From Echinicola rosea (GTDB taxonomy: Bacteria; Bacteroidota; Bacteroidia; Cytophagales; Cyclobacteriaceae), in NCBI RefSeq assembly GCF_005281475.1, contig NZ_CP040106.1, positions 5,880,001 to 5,944,000 of the forward strand: a DNA stretch of 64,000 nt. Reading direction: 5' to 3'. Numbering within the stretch: the first letter of the stretch is position 1; every line of letters starts with the position of its first letter. Below are positions 11,648-38,157 of this stretch, in pieces. The translations under genes and the position numbers were made by a program. Below the pieces are notes generated by a model. That model did no database searches. It worked only from the letters and a program-made list of their open reading frames with translations, and was not told where the DNA came from.

Positions 11648-12502
11648 TTACCTCCTTCCAAATTTTCTGATCAAGTAATACACCAAACCGATGGCCACAA
11701 GGATCACCAAAATACCGACCCATCCTGAAAGCAAGGAAGTGGTGACGGTCATACGGTAAGACGCCTCGCTGTTGGTTTCAGCGGTCTTGGCGGTAAACTT
11801 GTTCACATAGTCTCCTGGCAAGGTTTTCTCTGGTACAGTGACAGTGGCCACCACATCAACAGATTTCCCGGGATCAAGTTGTTCGATGGTGGAAGGTGAA
11901 AAAGTGGCTTCCCACTTGGGCGGGGTGCGGGATGACAGGGAGACATCGCCAAGGGGTAGCGAACCTGTATTCTTAACCTGTAAATTCACCTGTTTGTTTT
12001 TTCCCTCGGTCACTTCTCCGCTTAACCTTCCAGAAGGAGTAGTAAGCATGATTTCATAGTCACCCTCCACCACGGCTTCCAGGTTAAGGGAAAGGGAATC
12101 CGACCCGACAGCATGTACAGGCACGTCATATTTACCCGGTGCTGCCCCATGGGCGGGGGTGACCTCAATGGCGATCGATTCAGATTTTTTGGGATCCACT
12201 TGGAGGGAAGTGACCTGCTTGCCACTTACTTTAAACCTTACCCGCCACCCATCAGGAGCCCGACCATCCAAAGTGTACTTTGCAGACGTGGAGGCTCCGT
12301 TTTTTAAGGTCGCTTGGTACCGAAAGGTCTCGCTCACCGGTGCTTCCAAATTGATCAGTCGGGCGGTAAGGGAGGAACCGCTCTCCGGGGCCTGTGCGGC
12401 AGTTTCCACTACCGACAGGCAAAACAAAACAGCCAATAAAACAAAGAAAAGGTGATTCGCGCCCATCATGGGCTTTCCATTGTTAAAACTATCTACTGAC
12501 AT
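11648..12502 (-). CDS. NEW3-domain membrane-anchored protein
   Basis: A 284-residue envelope protein with a signal segment (about 14-37), two immunoglobulin-like NEW3-type domains (about 45-140, and 145-250 with NLQVKNTGSLPLGDVSLS and LDPGKSVDVVATVTVP), and a C-terminal transmembrane helix followed by a short basic tail (YYLIRKFGRR). NEW3 proteins upstream of an ABC ATPase and ABC-2 permease form a recurrent trio, with the NEW3 part presumably acting outside the membrane. The start is uncertain: ATG 12502 is used here, but ATG 12469, preceded by GGAAAG, would give a better-placed signal peptide. Confidence 0.8.
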   Translation of the reverse strand: MSVDSFNNGKPMMGANHLFFVLLAVLFCLSVVETAAQAPESGSSLTARLINLEAPVSETFRYQATLKNGASTSAKYTLDGRAPDGWRVRFKVSGKQVTSLQVDPKKSESIAIEVTPAHGAAPGKYDVPVHAVGSDSLSLNLEAVVEGDYEIMLTTPSGRLSGEVTEGKNKQVNLQVKNTGSLPLGDVSLSSRTPPKWEATFSPSTIEQLDPGKSVDVVATVTVPEKTLPGDYVNKFTAKTAETNSEASYRMTVTTSLLSGWVGILVILVAIGLVYYLIRKFGRR

Positions 12503-12784: not shown

Positions 12785-13834
12785 TTAGCGGGATTTGTCA
12801 TCTTTACCAAACCATTTTTTCAGAAATTCGATCAACTCCTCAAAGTGTCTTTCAAGAAAATCCAACACCTCTTCAATGGCCTCGTCAAGTGCATTTTCTA
12901 CTGGATCAAACGCCTCCCCATTGAAATACCGCGGCTTGGATCCGGGGCCGTCTGGAGAGCCATGATGTTCGTCAATGGACTTGCGCCATCGTTCGGCATG
13001 CGTGCGCCATTCATGTTGGTTGACCAATTCCGGAGCCTCGAACCAGACATTCCAGGACAGGATATTGCCCGGAGCCAGCATATTGCCCGATGCGATATTG
13101 AACGCCTTCATGACCAGCTCATTAAACTCGTCCACCTTCGGGTCATTGGTTTTGGTGATTTCACCAATTTCAACATCCAGATGACCAACAGCCCATGCCA
13201 TTTCGTTATGGCGGCTAAATTCCGGACTTTTAAATGCCGTGGACTCCCCTGCCCTCAAGGGAAAAATCGGTTGGTCGGGCTTCTTTGGGCAATGCGTCGT
13301 CACCTTAATGGCATTGGCCTTGTCCAAAGGGAACGGATGATGGCTTTTTTCCAATATCGCCCACATCAATTGACCGAAAACCCCTTGCTTTGGACTAAAC
13401 CATATCTTCCCTTCCACGGTCATGTCACCGGCCAACAACGGTCCCTCTGATGGGACATCGGGCGTTTCGTCCACCCATCCCCGCTGGCCTGTGACGGTCA
13501 CCTCCACGTTAAGGCATACTTTATCAAAAATCCATACCCCTTGCTGAGGACAAATGATGGAATATACCCTGCCCGTATCCGTATAGCCCAATCTTGAAAT
13601 ATATGGGGCAAACATCTGGAAACACCGGGTGGACTCCTCCCCTCCCGGAACAGTTTTCCAACTAAATTCCGGCCATTTCACAGGCATCTGCCTTTGGAGC
13701 AGGTTGATATTGGCCAAATTATCCAACATGGGCAAAGCACTCAAATCAGGATCGGGGTAGGCGCATTTCGGGTGTTTTTTAAGAAAGCCTCCTTTCCAGC
13801 CCGGCACGGGCTTGGCGTTTTTTAAAGTGTACAT
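12785..13834 (-). CDS. Uncharacterised 349-residue protein
   Basis: I do not recognise a family. The protein has no signal peptide. It contains several Cys (PKCAYPD, STRCFQMF, SIICPQQG, DKVCLNVEV, THCPKK), many Trp and Pro, and a likely beta-rich middle (QRGWVDETPDVPSEGPL, GKIWFSPKQGVFGQ). The C-terminal ~50 residues are strongly helical, acidic then basic (DEAIEEVLDFLERHFEEL, then FLKKWFGKD), resembling an amphipathic helix or coiled coil. It is the last gene of a same-strand series holding a PorP/SprF protein, a repeat adhesin, a tail-collar protein and an aerolysin-like protein, and lies 142 bases after PorP. Its lack of a signal is shared with four of those genes, which hints at a common role. 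Confidence 0.6.
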   Translation of the reverse strand: MYTLKNAKPVPGWKGGFLKKHPKCAYPDPDLSALPMLDNLANINLLQRQMPVKWPEFSWKTVPGGEESTRCFQMFAPYISRLGYTDTGRVYSIICPQQGVWIFDKVCLNVEVTVTGQRGWVDETPDVPSEGPLLAGDMTVEGKIWFSPKQGVFGQLMWAILEKSHHPFPLDKANAIKVTTHCPKKPDQPIFPLRAGESTAFKSPEFSRHNEMAWAVGHLDVEIGEITKTNDPKVDEFNELVMKAFNIASGNMLAPGNILSWNVWFEAPELVNQHEWRTHAERWRKSIDEHHGSPDGPGSKPRYFNGEAFDPVENALDEAIEEVLDFLERHFEELIEFLKKWFGKDDKSR

Positions 13835-31686: not shown

Positions 31687-32151
31687 TTACTCTATCTTAA
31701 TACTCAGTCCCTGGATGGTCTGCCACCCTTCCTTATCGGTCACGCGGATCATAAAATGATAATCCCCCGGATCGATGTCTGCCGGGATGTCAATTTCCGC
31801 AGTGCCTTCATATTCCTGTAGCCCGGAAGGAATGGTATAGGTCTGGATAAACAACATCGGCTCAACAGGGGACTTGATAGGATCCACATCACAGTCATTC
31901 ACTTCGGTGCTGTGGGTATGGTGGTCAAAATTGTGATGAATATCCACGCTAAATCCTCCCAGCTCGACATTATCCCTAAACGTGGCATTGAACTGCACGG
32001 TAGATCCCCTTTCCAAGACACTGCACTGGAGAGGAAAGGACGATTCGGTCACGATGATCTCAGGATATTCGGTATCAATGACGGGCTTTTCATCGTCACC
32101 ACAAGCCGAAAATAGCAGCGCCATCAACAAGATGTACCAGTTTTTTTTCAT
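31687..32151 (-). CDS. DUF4625 lipoprotein with His cluster
   Basis: 154 residues. The signal ends in the lipobox LFSACG (Cys17), and the rest is a single beta-sandwich DUF4625-type domain (GGFSVDIHHNFDHHTHSTEV, YEGTAEIDIPADIDPGDYHF, RVTDKEGWQ). The HHNFDHHTHS cluster is well suited to binding Zn2+ or another transition metal. It starts 18 bases after the TonB-dependent receptor gene on the same strand and so falls under the receptor's palindrome-marked promoter. The protein is expected at the periplasmic or outer face of the outer membrane, possibly handing metal to the receptor. Confidence 0.8.
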   Translation of the reverse strand: MKKNWYILLMALLFSACGDDEKPVIDTEYPEIIVTESSFPLQCSVLERGSTVQFNATFRDNVELGGFSVDIHHNFDHHTHSTEVNDCDVDPIKSPVEPMLFIQTYTIPSGLQEYEGTAEIDIPADIDPGDYHFMIRVTDKEGWQTIQGLSIKIE

Positions 32152-32169: not shown

Positions 32170-34413
32170 TTAAAATTCATACTTCAATGAAAGGCTAATG
32201 TTCCTGCCCGCTTCGGGCAAACTGATCAACCGATAAAAGCTGGTGTGGTTCAGGTAGCGGGTATTTAAAAGGTTCTGTACCTGAAAGTCCGCTTGAATAG
32301 GTTGTTGAAACACCTTGACTTTTGCTCCTGCCCTGAGATGTACCAACTGATAGCCCTCCGTAATTTTTTCTGGTGGTACGATATTGGTCTGTTTGGCCGT
32401 CGCCCTTAAATCCACCGCAAAATAGGGACTGGTGAACATTTCCGATCCATCAGGTTGGTAGGTCACATTAAATATCCCGGAAGGTGGCGGGGAAAAGGGA
32501 AGCGTATAACCGCGCTTTGCCCCCGACTGCTGCTCACTGTACACATATTCTCCAATGAGCTCTGCACTCCACTGTGGGGTAAACCGGTAAACTGCATTGA
32601 ACTCAGCCCCATAGCGCATTACTTCAGCCTGGGTATAGTCAAAAACCTGGTTTCCAGCTCCGTACAGAATATCCAGTTCAGCAGTGGGGTTCAGGTAAAT
32701 ATAATTGGAGAAATAATTGACAAAAGGGCTAAAGGCCACTTACCACTTTTCCTTTTTCAGCTCGGCACCAAAATCCAATTGGAGGGATTGTTCGGGATCT
32801 AGATCGGCATTGCCCTTTTCATACCGAAAATAATGGTAATTCACCCCATTGGCAGCCAACTCCTTGGCAATGGGCATGCGGAAGCTAGTCCCTAAATTGG
32901 CCTTTAAGCTCAAGTCACCCGGAGCAAAATTAACCCCCATTGCCCAAACCATATTATCAAACTCCCTCCTGAAATCTTCTGCCCGGTAGAGGTAATCTGC
33001 TGGTGTCGCCTCCGTGGCATCTATCACACTTGGAAACCAATCCCGGTATTCCTCAATGTCGATGGTACTTCGGTCATAGCGTAGGGCAGCGGTAAACCTC
33101 CATTCAGGATTGAGCTGGTATTTTTCAATGGCATACAGCCCAAAACTAAATTGGTCATATGCAGGAATCAAAAAACCCCATCCACCAATCTCATTGCGTT
33201 GGTATTCCCCAGTTAGTCCCACCATCAGCTCGTGCTTATCCAAAAACAATTCGTCTTTGAGGTTGATCGAAAACACCTCCTTGTCAAATGCCCGCTCCTG
33301 CGTGGCTGGATAGGGCATCTCTGCAGGATAAACGGGGGGCATATATCCGTGGTTGACATATTGGCTCCATTCCTTTCGGTCATTCCGCTGGTAAGCCAAG
33401 TCCAACTGGAGGAACTGTTTTCCTGCTGCATAACTGGCCTTATTGATTATTTTGGTATGGCTGACCTCCTGAAACGGCAAAAGGATATCCCTGCTGGATT
33501 TATCATGCAAAGCGGCATCCACCTGTCGGGGCTCCAATCCATGGGCATTGGCAAAAAAACCCGATTTGGTATAGACACGGCTTACGGATAAGGTATTGCG
33601 AAAATGCGCTCCCAAATAGCCGATCCGGCCTGAGAAGTTTTGCTCCTTGCCGGCTGTATTGCGCATCTGGCCTTCGTGCAATGCCACACCAAAATCATAG
33701 ACAAATACCGAATCAGTGGGCACTTTAAAATCCCCATATTCGGCCATGGTAAAACGGCCCTCTGCAAACCAATTGTCCTTTCGGGCAACGACATTCGCAG
33801 AACCGCCCAGCCAGGCATTATTGGAACGCCCGCCCAGCTCAATGGATCCGTCCACTCCTTCCTTCGTGGGAGGAAGCTTCTCCCGGATGTCTACCACCCC
33901 TGCGATGGCGTCCGAACCGTACTTAAACGATGCAGGACCTTTGATGATCATTACTTGGTCGGCTGCGTACTGATCTACTTCCAGTCCATGGTCAGCCCCC
34001 CATTGTTGGCCTTCATGTTTGATGCCGTTTTCGACCACCATGACCTGATTGAAGCCAAGCCCTCGGATCAATGGCTTGGAAGCTCCTGAGCCTATTCCAA
34101 TGGTACTGATCCCGGGAACGCGCTCCAATGACTTCATCAAGCTTCCGCCGCGGTTTTCCCGGATAAAATCCTGCTTGACCAGCTCAATGCTGTTAGAAGA
34201 TTCCCGCTTGATCATCTCGGCCTGATCAATGACCACCACTTCGTCCAGCTCTCGGTATTCGGGAAAAGTATCCCGTTTGGCAAGAGTAGTCGTATCCAGC
34301 TTTACCAATGGATGCTCCAAGGATTTTGGGGATGATCCCACTGCCGGAAAAATCCCCAATGGCAAAACCGTGGCACTGAATATAGAAGAAACAAGAAATA
34401 TCAAAAGGGGCAT
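32170..34413 (-). pseudogene. TonB-dependent receptor interrupted by an in-frame TAA
   Basis: Starting at ATG 34413 with a signal peptide (ends near PAVGSS), the frame encodes a plug domain (DEVVVIDQAEMIKRESS, LERVPGISTIGIGSGASKPL, SDAIAGVVDIRE) and most of a beta-barrel, then meets TAA at 32740-32742. The same frame continues without other damage for 189 codons to 32170 and completes the barrel (ending ISLSLKYEF). One substitution (e.g. from GAA, CAA or AAA) explains it. The product would lack the last quarter of the barrel and be inactive, unless the stop is read through or is a sequence error. The plug resembles metal/haem-type receptors (ZnuD/HmuR-like). The promoter carries two copies of the shared palindrome. 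Confidence 0.85.
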
Positions 34414-34423
34414 AAGACTATAA

Positions 34424-34440
34424 ATGCAATGGAATTGCAA
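34424..34440 (-). promoter_or_regulatory. 17-bp operator, TonB-receptor promoter (downstream copy)
   Basis: ATGCAATGGAATTGCAA on the plus strand has the 6-5-6 form WTGCAA-N5-TTGCAW. It overlaps the -7 element and inferred start of transcription of the receptor gene, 11 bases before its ATG, a position suited to repression. Confidence 0.65.
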
Positions 34441-34467
34441 ATATACAAACAATAACACATGAAACAA
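34438..34467 (-). promoter_or_regulatory. Bacteroidota-type promoter of the TonB receptor operon
   Basis: On the minus strand, TTG (34467-34465), a 19-base spacer and TATATTTG (34445-34438) match the TTG-N17..20-TAnnTTTG consensus. The inferred transcript starts about 18 bases before ATG 34413. Both promoter elements are overlapped by palindromic operators. Confidence 0.65.
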
Positions 34468-34475
34468 CGTTGCAT
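34459..34475 (-). promoter_or_regulatory. 17-bp operator, TonB-receptor promoter (upstream copy)
   Basis: ATGAAACAACGTTGCAT has the same 6-5-6 layout with one mismatch in a half-site (ATGAAA for ATGCAA). It covers the -33 TTG of the receptor promoter. Confidence 0.6.
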
Positions 34476-34635
34476 TTCAAAGTAGCGAATTAAAATTCAT
34501 TTTGCACCCGTCCACTGTACCATTAGGAAGATTCCTTCTTTCCTTCTCTAAAACCATCACATCCCGGCACCTATTCCCCACACCATTCCCCTTGATCAAA
34601 TAAATTAAGAGCATTAATGATTTCCCTGCTTGCTT

Positions 34636-34676
34636 TTGCAACTTTATTGCACAATATTTGCGCAATAAAGTTGCAA
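34636..34676 (+). promoter_or_regulatory. Double operator forming a 15-bp perfect inverted repeat
   Basis: TTGCAACTTTATTGC at 34636-34650 is exactly mirrored at 34662-34676 around an 11-base centre. It can be read as two adjacent 6-5-6 operators: 34636-34652 (TTGCAA-CTTTA-TTGCAC) and 34660-34676 (GCGCAA-TAAAG-TTGCAA). It lies 81 bases before the DUF4625 gene at 34758. A weak promoter, TTG (34630-34632), 20 bases, AATATTTG (34653-34660), would lie inside it. Confidence 0.7.
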
Positions 34677-34757
34677 AGACACAAAATAACAGGGGGCAAA
34701 TTGATCTTGCTTTCCATTCAGGACTAAATAAATCTTTACACCATAATTATTTACAAA

Positions 34758-35528
34758 ATGAACAAACTGAAACGCACATTTCTAATTTCACTTTTGGGCT
34801 TGGCCTTGTTCTCTTGTCAGGACGACGAAGACCAAACGTTTGACGCGCCCATCATTTCCTCATTTGAATTTGGAGAGGGCAGTACTCATTCTACCGAACC
34901 CGTGGCCTACCGAGGTTCAGACCTTCATATGGAAGCCAGTATCCAAGCGGAGGTAAACGTCGCATCCATCACGGTATCCATCCATGGCCATGACCTGGAA
35001 GTGGGCGAAGGAGAAACCGAATGGGATTTTTCACAAACCTATACCGATGAAAAGTACATGGTCAAAAATCCAACCTTCCATGAACACATTGATATTCCGG
35101 CCACAGCTCCAGTTGGTGAATACCACGTGGTCTTGGAAGTAACGGACGAATTAGGAAACACCACTGAAGAAGAAGGACACTTAGAGATCATGTCTCCTGT
35201 GACCATCAGTGAATTCCACATGGATGAGACCGTTGTAAGGGGAACTGATTTCCACGTGGATTTCATGATTGAGGCGATCCACGGTATCCATGCTATCTCT
35301 GTGGATATCCACGCCCATGGCCTAACACCCGTGGAAGGAGAAACTGAATGGCATCTTGACCAAGTATATGAAGAAGGATACCATGGCCTTACCGAGGCTG
35401 AATTTCATGAGCATATCGATGTACCTTCCACTGCTCCTGCCGGAGAATACCACGTGGTGTTCAGTGTAGAAGACGAAGAGGGAAACATACAGGAATATGA
35501 CACCCATCTTGATGTGACTGCCAATTGA
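34758..35528 (+). CDS. Tandem DUF4625 lipoprotein, His-rich
   Basis: 256 residues with lipobox ALFSCQ (Cys20). Two DUF4625-type beta-sandwich domains follow (about 30-145 and 147-254), clear duplicates of each other: FHEHIDIPATAPVGEYHVV in the first and FHEHIDVPSTAPAGEYHVV in the second. Both carry many His residues (SIHGHDLE, DIHAHGLTP, FHMDETVVRGTDFHVDF). It is divergent from the TonB receptor and single-domain DUF4625 gene and has the same operator upstream. A periplasmic or surface zinc-binding role is a reasonable inference, not shown. Confidence 0.82.
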   Translation: MNKLKRTFLISLLGLALFSCQDDEDQTFDAPIISSFEFGEGSTHSTEPVAYRGSDLHMEASIQAEVNVASITVSIHGHDLEVGEGETEWDFSQTYTDEKYMVKNPTFHEHIDIPATAPVGEYHVVLEVTDELGNTTEEEGHLEIMSPVTISEFHMDETVVRGTDFHVDFMIEAIHGIHAISVDIHAHGLTPVEGETEWHLDQVYEEGYHGLTEAEFHEHIDVPSTAPAGEYHVVFSVEDEEGNIQEYDTHLDVTAN

Positions 35529-35540
35529 TCGTCACTACAA

Positions 35541-35572
35541 AAAAAGGCTGACCGAATATGGTCAGCCTTTTT
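35541..35572. terminator. Hairpin terminator
   Basis: AAAAAGGCTGACC (35541-35553) pairs perfectly with GGTCAGCCTTTTT (35560-35572) around a 6-base loop, with T-rich sequence after it and A-rich sequence before it. It is bidirectional in form and separates the tandem DUF4625 gene (+) from the transporter operon (-). Confidence 0.85.
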
Positions 35573-35652
35573 CTTTTCCCCATGCATTAAGAAGAGTGCA
35601 CGTTACGCAAACAACTTCATTGATCGGTGACCATCTGACGAAACTTGGGAAA

Positions 35653-36087
35653 CTATTTATGGACGGTAGCGTCTTCGAGGATATAATTACATTGGTAAAT
35701 GTCCGTTGCATTAAGCTTGAGCTTTCCTTTAAAGGTCAATATTTCATCCATTTTGAACCGTGGATGGTCCTTGGAAACTTTTAGTTCGATAATCGATTCT
35801 GGTCCGGCAGCCCCACAAAAAAAACAGGCAGAAAAGGGATTGGCTGAGAGAATATAGACGTCCTCGTCCGCATCGATCTCGAGCAAATACCCACGGATGA
35901 CCACTTCCTTATCCGCCAGTTCCAAAACGGAAGGCCCAAATTTCGGGAAGTAATAATAGGCATCCACCTCCTCGCTATATTTATCTGTAAATGAAACATC
36001 TGCCAACGTTTCCCATGTAATCTTCGTCTGAGAATATCCGGTAAGGGAAATAATAAAAAGGAGTATTAATAAACTGGTCCTAAACAT
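35653..36087 (-). CDS. DUF3299-like periplasmic protein (ZrgE-like)
   Basis: 144 residues with a signal peptide (ends near TGYSQT) and a small beta-rich domain: ITWETLADVSF, FPKFGPSVLELADKEVVIRG, YLLEIDADEDVYILS, FSACFFCGAAGPESIIELKV. The layout (WETL start, a GYLLEID-type strand, then a Cys-containing loop) matches DUF3299-type proteins, which in some proteobacteria are encoded with zinc-regulated MacB-like transporters. The gene overlaps the end of the FtsX-type permease by 8 bases. The FSACFFCG Cys pair may bind metal or redox-couple. The DUF3299 assignment is from recalled motifs. Confidence 0.65.
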   Translation of the reverse strand: MFRTSLLILLFIISLTGYSQTKITWETLADVSFTDKYSEEVDAYYYFPKFGPSVLELADKEVVIRGYLLEIDADEDVYILSANPFSACFFCGAAGPESIIELKVSKDHPRFKMDEILTFKGKLKLNATDIYQCNYILEDATVHK

Positions 36088-37417
36088 CTGATAGACTTTT
36101 TGAAATGTCGATTCTATAAACTGAAATCGCTGGAATGAGCGCTGAAAGAAACCCTATGGCCAAGGTCACCGCAAACAAGTAACCTTCTCCCAAAATTGGC
36201 CCTGATGGGTAAAATTCATAATGATATTCGGATTTCAGCAGCCATCCAACCACCCAGAGTCCCAGCCTACTGAAGACCAATCCCAGTAAGAATCCTGCAA
36301 CAGCAATAAACACTCCTTCCTGAAAGACCAGTCCAAGCAATTGCCCCCTGGACGCGCCAAACGTCCTCAAAAGTGCCATCTCGTAAGAACGTTCCCGAAG
36401 TCCCAAGTACAAGCTGATGAAAACGCTGATGCCCGAGACCAAGATCACAATAAAAGCCACCATCTTAAGAGTGGAGGTCGCCATCCCCATCAGACTGAAG
36501 AGCTTTGCCAATTCGTATTTGGGCAAGGCTGCCTGCATATTGGTGTGCTCGTTGACCAATCTGGGAAGCTGGACCATACCTAGCGGATTTTTAAACTTGA
36601 TCAGCAGAGCGGTGATCTCCTTGTCCGCTTCGTGGGAATGGGATGCACCTGCTTCCTCCTGTAGGTGATTTGCTTCGTCTCCGTGATGATGCCCTTCTTG
36701 ATGTCCATGTGATTTATTTTCCTTGGGTTTATCCTCATGAGCATGATGGTCTTTTTCGTTTTCTCCTTCACGCACTTTATCTGCTACTTCATGCGCTCCA
36801 TGATGGCTGTGGATATCCCATACACTTTGCAGATCGGTCAGGATCAATTGGTCCACCACGGTCCCTGAAGGTTCGAATATTCCGGTTATCAAATAGGCAT
36901 GGTCATCGTGGACATGTCCACCCTCTCCAAGCCCATGGGAACCATGAAACCTGTCGCCTATCCCCAGTCCTGTTTTTCTGGCCACTGCTGCTCCGATGGT
37001 CACTTCCATGAATTCCCCCCATAACCGGCCTTCCTGGAGTTTCATCGCATAGTTTTCCGGATACCGGCCATCGGTGCCCACAATTCTGAATCCACCATAA
37101 GAATCCCCATATGAAAGTGGAATGCCATACTCGACCAACCTGTTTTTCAAAAGCCTATTGGCCTCGGAGAGCTGTATGTTTCCCGTCGGAACATCCACCT
37201 GAAAAACAGCTGAAAGGATCAGTTGCAGTGGACTGCCTTTTGCTCCCACCACCATGTCTATGCCACGGATATTGGAGTTCATCTGTGCCTTAAGGTGCTG
37301 ATCGAGATGCAGCATCAATGAGATCAGTCCCACCCCGAGAGACAGCAACAACAAACTCAATCCTGTGGAAAGTGGCTTGGCAGTGATATTTTTGATACTT
37401 AAGCGGAAAATATTCAT
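36080..37417 (-). CDS. FtsX/MacB-type ABC permease with a long His-rich loop
   Basis: 445 residues from ATG 37417. It has one N-terminal transmembrane helix (after FRLSIKNITAKP), a MacB-like periplasmic domain, and three C-terminal helices typical of FtsX permeases (VAFIVILVSGISVFISLYLG, LLGLVFQEGVFIAVAGFLLG, LFAVTLAIGFLSALIPA). Inserted in the periplasmic domain at about 210-270 is a stretch with about 16 His in 60 residues (DKVREGENEKDHHAHEDKP, SHGHQEGHHHGDEANHL, ASHSHEADKE), plus GGHVHDDHAY and IHSHHGAHEV just before it. This strongly suggests Zn2+/Ni2+/Co2+ binding. With the ATPase it resembles the zinc-regulated Zrg-type transporter rather than a lipoprotein exporter. Confidence 0.85.
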   Translation of the reverse strand: MNIFRLSIKNITAKPLSTGLSLLLLSLGVGLISLMLHLDQHLKAQMNSNIRGIDMVVGAKGSPLQLILSAVFQVDVPTGNIQLSEANRLLKNRLVEYGIPLSYGDSYGGFRIVGTDGRYPENYAMKLQEGRLWGEFMEVTIGAAVARKTGLGIGDRFHGSHGLGEGGHVHDDHAYLITGIFEPSGTVVDQLILTDLQSVWDIHSHHGAHEVADKVREGENEKDHHAHEDKPKENKSHGHQEGHHHGDEANHLQEEAGASHSHEADKEITALLIKFKNPLGMVQLPRLVNEHTNMQAALPKYELAKLFSLMGMATSTLKMVAFIVILVSGISVFISLYLGLRERSYEMALLRTFGASRGQLLGLVFQEGVFIAVAGFLLGLVFSRLGLWVVGWLLKSEYHYEFYPSGPILGEGYLFAVTLAIGFLSALIPAISVYRIDISKSLSDV

Positions 37418-37422
37418 GGAAT

Positions 37423-38079
37423 TCAATTTATAGAAGAGACTGACTGGATGGCAGGAAGTGTTACCGAAACGGGAAATTCGGACTTCAAGCGTTGATCATG
37501 CGTGATGATGATCAAGCTGGAATTGGTCTTGACAGTCTGCCTTTTCAGCAGCTCGATGACCCGAAAGCAATTTTTATCATCCAGTGCGGCTGTTGGTTCG
37601 TCGGCGAGGATCAGTTTGGGACGGTTGATAACGGCCAACGCAATGGACGCCCGCTGCTGCTCTCCCTGAGACAGCTGACGTGGGTAGCTTTTGAGCTTAT
37701 CCAGCAATCCCAGACCATCCAGCACCTCCCTGATTTGATGGGAATCCTGCGGTTTGTTTGCCAAAAACCTGACCATCTCCAGGTTTTCCTCCAATGTAAG
37801 GGACTGGATAAAATGGGCACGCTGGAAAACGATCCCGACATGGCCGCCTCTAAAAGTATCCAATTGCTTTCCGCGCAATTGGGCAATATCTGTTTCTCCT
37901 ATCTGGATGCTACCGTTTTTTGGCTTCAACAAGCCTGCTATCAGGTGTAAAAAGGTCGTCTTGCCGACACCGGACTCCCCAAGAATCAATAAATCTGTCC
38001 CTTCGGGAACGTTCAGGTCTGGAAATTCGAATTGGTTGTCCTTATTGTATTCAAATGAAACTGATTGGGTAATTAGCAT
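37423..38079 (-). CDS. ABC transporter ATP-binding protein (LolD/MacB type)
   Basis: 218 residues. Walker A is GESGVGKTTFLHL (about 34-46), the Q-loop lies near GIVFQRAHF, the signature is LSQGEQQRASIALAV, Walker B is ILADEPTAALDD and the switch is IITHDQ. The size and motifs fit the LolD/MacB/FtsE class, which works with FtsX-type permeases; the His-rich permease follows 5 bases downstream. It is the first gene of an ATPase-permease-DUF3299-like operon whose promoter is covered by a 20-bp palindrome at 38113-38157. Confidence 0.92.
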   Translation of the reverse strand: MLITQSVSFEYNKDNQFEFPDLNVPEGTDLLILGESGVGKTTFLHLIAGLLKPKNGSIQIGETDIAQLRGKQLDTFRGGHVGIVFQRAHFIQSLTLEENLEMVRFLANKPQDSHQIREVLDGLGLLDKLKSYPRQLSQGEQQRASIALAVINRPKLILADEPTAALDDKNCFRVIELLKRQTVKTNSSLIIITHDQRLKSEFPVSVTLPAIQSVSSIN

Positions 38080-38101
38080 ATCTTCTGGATGTTGGACAAT
38101 G

Positions 38102-38132
38102 CAAATCTAGCCATCAATTTTATCAAATGCAA
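38102..38132 (-). promoter_or_regulatory. Bacteroidota-type promoter of the His-rich ABC operon
   Basis: On the minus strand, TTG (38132-38130), a 20-base spacer and TAGATTTG (38109-38102) match the consensus. The transcript would begin about 15 bases before ATG 38079. The -33 TTG lies inside the palindromic operator. Confidence 0.7.
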
Positions 38133-38157
38133 CAATATTGCATTTGATAAAATTGAT
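38113..38157. promoter_or_regulatory. 20-bp perfect inverted repeat containing the 17-bp operator
   Basis: The arms 38113-38132 and 38138-38157 are perfectly complementary with a 5-base spacer (CAATA). The core, ATGCAACAATATTGCAT at 38127-38143, is the cleanest example of the 6-5-6 motif found also at 34424, 34459 and 34636/34660. It covers the -33 element of the ABC operon promoter. Its form and the His-rich genes it controls suggest a Zur/Fur-family repressor site; the protein itself is not in the window. Confidence 0.75.

Follow-up and report, generated by a model that had tools for sequence, protein, structure and literature searches.

Putative Zur-type operator boxes at three promoters of Echinicola rosea

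We analysed a stretch of 64,000 nucleotides of the Echinicola rosea genome (contig NZ_CP040106.1, positions 5,880,001 to 5,944,000; this whole stretch is referred to as the window and its first letter as position 1) in which five copies of a palindromic box precede three transcription units. Very probably these boxes constitute the operators of a Zur-type, i.e. Fur-family, zinc repressor at three promoters. An earlier note, made from the letters of the window, had placed five palindromes of the form WTGCAA-N5-TTGCAW just upstream of a TonB receptor unit, a tandem DUF4625 lipoprotein gene and an operon for an ATPase, a permease and a DUF3299-like protein, and had ascribed them to a Zur/Fur-type metal repressor, regulator and metal being its inference. 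All five sites are found at their positions, 10, 81 and 47 nt, respectively, from the first-gene starts of the three units, and the assignment to such a repressor gains support from the matrix ranking of the sites and from the content of the regulon.

Box sites and promoter placement

The boxes, the repeats that they form and the adjoining promoter elements are given below with mismatches to WTGCAAN5TTGCAW, matrix score and expectation value (E) of a calibrated sequence model.

34424..34440, no strand assigned: Zur-type box, downstream member of a pair spaced by 35 bp in the promoter of the minus-strand TonB receptor unit; no mismatch, matrix 17.4, E 5e-4
34459..34475, no strand assigned: Zur-type box, upstream member of the TonB-side pair; one mismatch, matrix 16.2, E 0.15
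34636..34652, no strand assigned: Zur-type box 5' of the DUF4625 lipoprotein gene, first member of a pair spaced by 24 bp; one mismatch, matrix 16.4, E 0.004
34660..34676, no strand assigned: weaker Zur-type box, second member of the DUF4625-side pair; two mismatches, matrix 8.3, E 0.018
38127..38143, no strand assigned: Zur-type box 5' of the ATPase-permease-DUF3299-like operon (minus strand), top place of the window; no mismatch, matrix 26.1, E 1.7e-5
34635..34677, no strand assigned: inverted repeat formed by both DUF4625-side boxes, arms of 20 nt (95%)
38113..38157, no strand assigned: perfect 45-bp palindrome enclosing box 38127, arms of 20 nt (100%)
34438..34445, minus strand: -7-like element TATATTTG, located at -13 relative to the centre of box 34424
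38102..38109, minus strand: -7-like element TAGATTTG, located at +26 relative to the centre of box 38127

Aligned with one another, the sites give WTGCAAC-ANT-GTTGCAW between TAA/TTA-rich flanks. A Fur-family repeat of the 7-1-7 type, TGCAACA-N-TGTTGCA, describes the box better than the 6-5-6 palindrome of the earlier note, which overlooks a conserved Y...R step within N5 and is matched exactly by boxes 34424 and 38127 only. Zur boxes of the 7-1-7 type are mentioned in a 2018 review on Zur (PMC6103462). The matrix was built, the own genome being left out, from 87 distinct exact matches of WTGCAAYNNNRTTGCAW in other genomes of the family; removal of five located within open reading frames (ORFs) left 82 sites, on which the calibrated model was trained as well. 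A search of 60 family genomes with the exact motif returned 215 sites, eight of them in E. rosea itself, compared with six for the reversed pattern, and the motif is present in 54 of these genomes. Across the class it occurs in 95 of 159 genomes, with 195 sites compared with 19 for the reversed pattern. Sites within ORFs, encountered at nine of the 28 class loci examined and in the own genome at 4551027 and 5352901, were taken as chance.

A matrix scan of the window places the five boxes at ranks 1 to 5, while the sixth place scores only 4.5, in agreement with the earlier note which had noticed no further copies; the calibrated model puts the next place at E 1.7. In 40 simulated sequences of 64 kb, a mean of 0.00, 0.05, 0.12, 0.15 and 0.75 places reach 26.1, 17.4, 16.4, 16.2 and 8.3, respectively. 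Taken alone, box 34660, the fifth by matrix, is weak. That the palindromes are due to chance or represent structural elements such as hairpins, terminators or ends of mobile elements is highly improbable. Such a view could point to the abundance of the loose pattern, as 90 matches with three mismatches occur in the window, and to four exact A/T-centred copies that have integrase- or transposase-like genes or an unlabelled ORF in their vicinity; it is opposed by the matrix ranking, the conserved spacing and the strand-specific position relative to promoters. The loose pattern is not enriched, with 133 matches expected from shuffled sequence, and is therefore no evidence by itself, so that the matrix was used instead. 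The four A/T-centred copies (539861, 3066211, 3117215 and 5808681) have mostly mobile-gene neighbours, as judged by eye, and no model match; we consider them unrelated.

In Bacteroidota the -7 promoter element reads TAnnTTTG (PMC9723704). Of 54 sites flanked by genes on just one side, 20 have this element either at -13 or between +25 and +28 relative to the box centre, compared with a single site in the opposite reading direction, and both positions observed in the window (-13 and +26) are frequent in the relatives. The boxes tend to overlie the Bacteroidota -33/-7 promoter, and box 38127 would cover the -33 region. Of the 29 pairs of boxes that lie within 300 bp of each other, 15 have a spacing of 38-40 bp (the 29 include six from the window itself, class loci excluded). 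Since the preferred -7 positions are about 39 bp apart as well, one box of such a pair would lie over the -33 element and the other over the -7 element.

The arrangement of the boxes is conserved in relatives. The DUF4625 lipoprotein is present in 13 of 295 family genomes, and at nine of these 13 loci both box pairs are kept with spacings of 35 or 36 bp and of 24 bp; five of the nine belong to the own genus and four to another one, E. rosea being included in all these counts. Despite the kept pair spacing, the DNA between the pairs is altered in length across the nine loci. Box 34459 recurs in the form TGAAACAAYGTTGC in 9/9 loci having the TonB-side pair, and a counterpart of box 34660 with a degenerate left end is retained in relatives. 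The best protein match comes from Echinicola vietnamensis (91%). Identities from an intergenic alignment (69% vs 36%) were left unused because the TonB-side pair is misaligned in four loci. At the ATPase-permease operon, eight of 30 permease loci have a box. Among the fetched loci with at least 56% permease identity all six do (own included, two partial alignments), in a set which leaves out one partial 58% match in genome G009; locus L167 (L numbers are our locus labels), at 55% identity, has no box, and L162 and L177, at lower identity, have one. How much His the permease contains is by itself no guide to a box: L161 (5.2%) and L164 (4.2%) are devoid of one.

Regulon content and candidate repressor

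Scanning the genome with a site model and searching related genomes for the motif, in line with the check proposed in the earlier note, led to about ten promoters in E. rosea and to COG0523, HisI, FolE and Zrg-like ABC targets. In the own genome (a single contig of 6,064,527 bp; scores were computed for 150 out of 2331 first-look candidates) the model set is compact and includes the three promoters of the window together with the following ones.

3160 kb: MerC-like protein and COG0523 GTPase
4455 kb: second COG0523 GTPase
4008 kb: ABC-2/TonB unit
5247 kb: second TonB/ABC-2 unit
3037 kb: alkaline-phosphatase-like protein
4680 kb: pyridine-nucleotide oxidoreductase
5236 kb: lanthipeptide cluster

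Three TonB-receptor units are among these promoters, and a weak model match is found at 865166 (E 5). Many genomic matches without a link to metal genes would, according to the earlier note, have spoken against a metal regulon; the looser one-mismatch pattern has 64 matches in the own genome, the extra ones examined showing no clear metal link.

The 89 genes adjoining the 82 family sites include those for 11 TonB plug proteins, eight MerC-like proteins, six ABC ATPases, five pyridine-nucleotide oxidoreductases, three COG0523 proteins, three Fur proteins, two HisI proteins and two DUF4625 proteins. Homologues of GTP cyclohydrolase I (FolE) are encoded near boxes at L070, L158 and L260, where they stand beside Zrg-like operons or a lanthipeptide cluster. 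Box operators hence stand at hallmark zinc-starvation genes, namely COG0523 in E. rosea and HisI, COG0523 and FolE in its relatives. Zur is predicted or known to target COG0523 and HisI in Bacilli, proteobacteria and cyanobacteria (PMC2770081), according to a paper whose main text contains no word beginning with "Bacteroid".

It is improbable, though less so than a chance origin of the boxes, that the signal is iron, sensed by Fur, or another metal such as cobalt, nickel or manganese. TonB receptors and ABC systems are frequent in iron regulons. In addition, PA4063-PA4066 of Pseudomonas, which resembles the ATPase-permease operon, has been linked to cobalt-pyochelin export (PMC11481552). Zinc is favoured over these metals since elsewhere COG0523 and HisI homologues as well as Zrg operons count among the targets of Zur, predicted or measured (PMC2770081, PMC9817125), and since the two own Fur proteins taken as iron type lie apart from the box-carrying fur genes in the tree.

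The own genome harbours nine Fur-family genes, of which a lone gene at 1174200-1174616 (139 aa) is the likeliest candidate for the regulator. Its product finds its best Protein Data Bank (PDB) matches in M. tuberculosis FurB (2o03) and E. coli Zur (4mtd) and contains two CxxC motifs as well as a YALC cysteine which aligns with an E. coli Zur cysteine; the role of Zur C88 is treated in PMC4219657. Matches to this protein (E <= 1e-12, paralogues included) occur in 49 of 54 good family genomes. The box motif is missing from four of nine genomes without a match to the protein, several of the nine being incomplete, compared with two of 51 with a match (Fisher p 0.003). The earlier note had suggested a look for boxes at zur/fur genes: nine Zur-like fur genes of relatives do carry one, four within the family (L059, L060, L108 and L156) and five from outside the family but within the class (L201, L203, L204, L207 and L209), but the 1174 kb gene itself does not. 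Among the eight own Fur proteins compared, that of the 1174 kb gene is the nearest to eight of these nine (two of which are near-copies).

Alternatively, the boxes may serve another Fur paralogue (5169, 5262, 5269, 5644 or 5761 kb, beside efflux islands) or several paralogues sharing one box type. We regard this as rather unlikely, yet as the most plausible of the alternatives; it overlaps with our explanation, in which the choice of paralogue stays free. The 1174 kb query, itself counted, matches six own Fur proteins, near the efflux-side Fur paralogues there are variant boxes centred on CCC or GGG, and the Fur paralogue beside the Zrg-like operon of L159 is nearest to the own 5262 kb protein. 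Against such a role of a paralogue stand the absence of the efflux-side boxes from the genome model scan, the wide occurrence of matches to the 1174 kb protein in the family, some of which may be paralogues, and its proximity to the box-carrying fur genes.

Because they are missing from the model scan, the efflux-side variant boxes were rejected as members of the regulon. They precede small Cys-rich proteins and resistance-nodulation-division (RND) efflux genes (L026, L028, L031, L035 and L036; L057 and L206 in relatives), often near Zur-like Fur paralogues, and perhaps represent a metal-excess counterpart. The Cys-rich protein of L026 is assigned to DUF6660 by Pfam, that of L035 to no family, while the others are similar by eye. 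In L028 two identical ORFs of an IS200-like transposase (137 aa, Y1_Tnp; 11766-12176 and 13024-13434) flank the Cys-rich gene with its variant box.

Several observations weigh against a Zur-type operator system under the control of the 1174 kb protein. With respect to the sites, the core of the matrix is not independent, as the seed pattern was grown from the motif of the earlier note, and the reversed pattern used as control has a different CpG content. In the window the two pairs are spaced by 35 and 24 bp, i.e. outside 38-40 bp, and the DUF4625 promoter is devoid of a perfect -7 match. Boxes are missing from four of the 13 DUF4625 loci, the more distant ones, and from 22 of the 30 permease loci, and the four loci of the other genus have a lipoprotein instead of the receptor beside the 35-bp pair. 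Concerning the protein, the NCBIfam Zur model (E. coli type) scores it at 45.3 bits with a cut-off of 167 bits, and five other own Fur proteins match it as well. The Fur tree, from which the own 2057 kb protein was left out and in which the rows L143 and L147 are wrong frames with very long branches, leaves the paralogues unseparated. The region upstream of the 1174 kb gene contains no box, and only one of 28 readable fur loci (own included; 30 best matches fetched) has one, three further fur-box loci in the same 60 genomes having been found through the pattern search. We therefore rejected autoregulation as a family-wide rule.

In the Zur-type operator system which we favour, the sites, their matrix rank, the spacing kept in relatives, the overlap with promoters and the make-up of the regulon are observed; the identity of the binding protein, zinc as its metal and repression are what we infer. 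Presumably, one repressor dimer would bind per 7-1-7 inverted repeat. In the presence of zinc the repressor would occupy the -33 and/or -7 elements and block transcription sterically, while in its absence it would be released, allowing expression of the TonB receptor with its DUF4625 lipoprotein, of the His-rich tandem DUF4625 lipoprotein and of the Zrg/PA4063-66-like ABC operon.

Window gene products and lanthipeptide clusters

The genes of the three window units are as follows.

31687..32151, minus strand: DUF4625 lipoprotein 3' of the receptor (Pfam DUF4625, 137 bits)
32170..34413, minus strand: TonB-dependent receptor (Pfam: Plug and barrel in its first piece, barrel again in the second)
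34758..35528, plus strand: tandem DUF4625 His-rich lipoprotein (Pfam; 20 His in 256 aa)
35653..36087, minus strand: DUF3299-like protein with OB-like fold (Pfam DUF3299, 13.6 bits, cut-off 22 bits)
36080..37426, minus strand: MacB/FtsX-type permease (Pfam FtsX, MacB_PCD), His-rich over one stretch (15 His within 60 aa)
37423..38079, minus strand: ABC ATPase, Zrg/PA4064-like (Pfam ABC_tran)

In the receptor and DUF4625 unit of the earlier note, the frame of the receptor is interrupted by an in-frame TAA at 32740-32742 which gives two frames; hence, the receptor may not work in this strain, or the sequence contains an error. In the model of the tandem DUF4625 protein beta strands predominate (mean predicted local distance difference test score, pLDDT, 89.1), and a fold search returned only general beta-sandwich matches with low template modelling (TM) scores. 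In an alignment of 42 sequences, 11 of its His columns are invariant. The protein might have a zinc-binding role at the cell surface beside the TonB receptor; a literature search for DUF4625 found no paper. The DUF3299-like protein was modelled with a mean pLDDT of 89.6, and the sole PDB match of its model at E <= 0.001 is PA4066 (4hsp) (E 2.5e-4, TM score 0.51). Since no DUF2796 protein, the type of ZrgA/PA4063, is found among the nine window proteins scanned, we name the operon Zrg-like and not Zrg. A second ATPase-permease-DUF3299-like operon of the own genome (locus L261, 8150-9373) has no box, and its neighbourhood is common to many family genomes.

Outside the window, a lanthipeptide cluster of E. 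rosea (L037, 5235598-5252600) harbours a His-rich precursor between two pairs of Zur-type boxes. Two exact boxes, 39 bp apart, precede the gene of a precursor of 58 aa that has a pinensin leader; genes for LanC, a C39 exporter, HlyD and LanB proteins come next, and the second pair precedes the adjoining TonB/ABC-2 unit. With a leader score of 31.9 bits for NF038180 (cut-off 24 bits) as well as Lant_dehydr_N and LANC_like matches, the cluster is of the pinensin family of lanthipeptides by leader, LanB and LanC. At least 194 leader matches occur in 20 of 295 genomes, with no more than 26 candidates scored per genome; among the 30 loci examined, of which seven gave no precursor frame by our filter (one of them, L241, was later read as L259), four have a box scoring above 8, namely the own locus and three of genus g37. 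The precursors of g37 contain HPTHTE segments, two members of this precursor family being assigned to Fulvivirga by their database names, and two database relatives of the own precursor retain HTTIHT and AHCC. L258 and L260 carry boxes at the precursor and at the exporter operon alike, with Pfam support for exporter and LanB in the former and for LanB in the latter. LanC relatives occur in 11 of 196 family genomes, and, the own one aside, a box is present at a single such locus.

The boxes at these His-rich clusters support zinc control of the lanthipeptide, as far as sequence can indicate. In E. rosea and Fulvivirga, it is conceivable, although we hold it to be doubtful, that a Zur-type repressor controls an exported, zinc-binding His-rich lanthipeptide which in E. 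rosea would be re-imported via the adjacent box-controlled TonB receptor and ABC-2 system and would thereby act as a peptide zincophore. The precursors of L243 and L244, with three or four core His, have no box, so that a core containing His is by itself no predictor of one. A search of a genome-contig database with LanC gave no match, and two matches of a DNA pattern combining box and leader in the same database, from unrelated organisms, were dismissed as chance. In the literature, a search found neither a zincophore role nor zinc regulation of lanthipeptides. As a separate observation, a carnosine N-methyltransferase-like protein (L030:139-1572; Pfam CARME, 3.4e-20) is encoded divergently from the box-controlled TonB unit beside the lanthipeptide cluster; a histidine-methylating role would be a guess.

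Comparison with known systems

Our literature search did not find a Zur box of Bacteroidota, the Bacteroidaceae set of RegPrecise lying outside this search; RegPrecise 3.0 includes such a collection (PMC3840689), and a non-canonical Fur has been described from Porphyromonas gingivalis (PMC6613475). With the boxes, zinc control in Bacteroidota would have an operator code that can be tested and that is clearly placed on the promoter. They would tie zinc starvation to a Zrg-like ABC system as well as to DUF4625 lipoproteins and MerC-like proteins, and they hint at a lanthipeptide which may have a metal-related role.

With the Zur regulons of proteobacteria, Bacilli, actinobacteria and cyanobacteria the present system shares a putative Fur-family regulator, a 7-1-7 operator, COG0523 and HisI as well as TonB receptors and, in some cases, putative autoregulation. 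Unlike in those regulons, the operator here is TGCAACA-N-TGTTGCA placed on a -33/-7 promoter, often in pairs 38-40 bp apart, and DUF4625 lipoproteins and MerC-like proteins are among the putative targets. ZrgABCDE of Vibrio and PA4063-PA4066 of Pseudomonas, both reported as zinc-repressed (PMC9817125, PMC11481552), likewise combine a separate ATPase with a MacB/FtsX-type permease and a DUF3299 protein, the two papers differing as to zinc import or export of metal complexes. In contrast to them, the window has adjoining DUF4625 lipoproteins and no DUF2796 protein among the nine scanned, and the own genome holds a boxless second copy of the operon. The lanthipeptide cluster resembles the pinensin family of Bacteroidota in its pinensin leader, LanB, LanC and C39 exporter, but differs from it by His-rich core segments and Zur-type promoter boxes. 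Finally, the opine-type zincophores staphylopine and pseudopaline, small molecules made under zinc starvation and served by dedicated transport, offer an analogy; unlike these, the candidate presented here is a ribosomal peptide with putative zinc binding.

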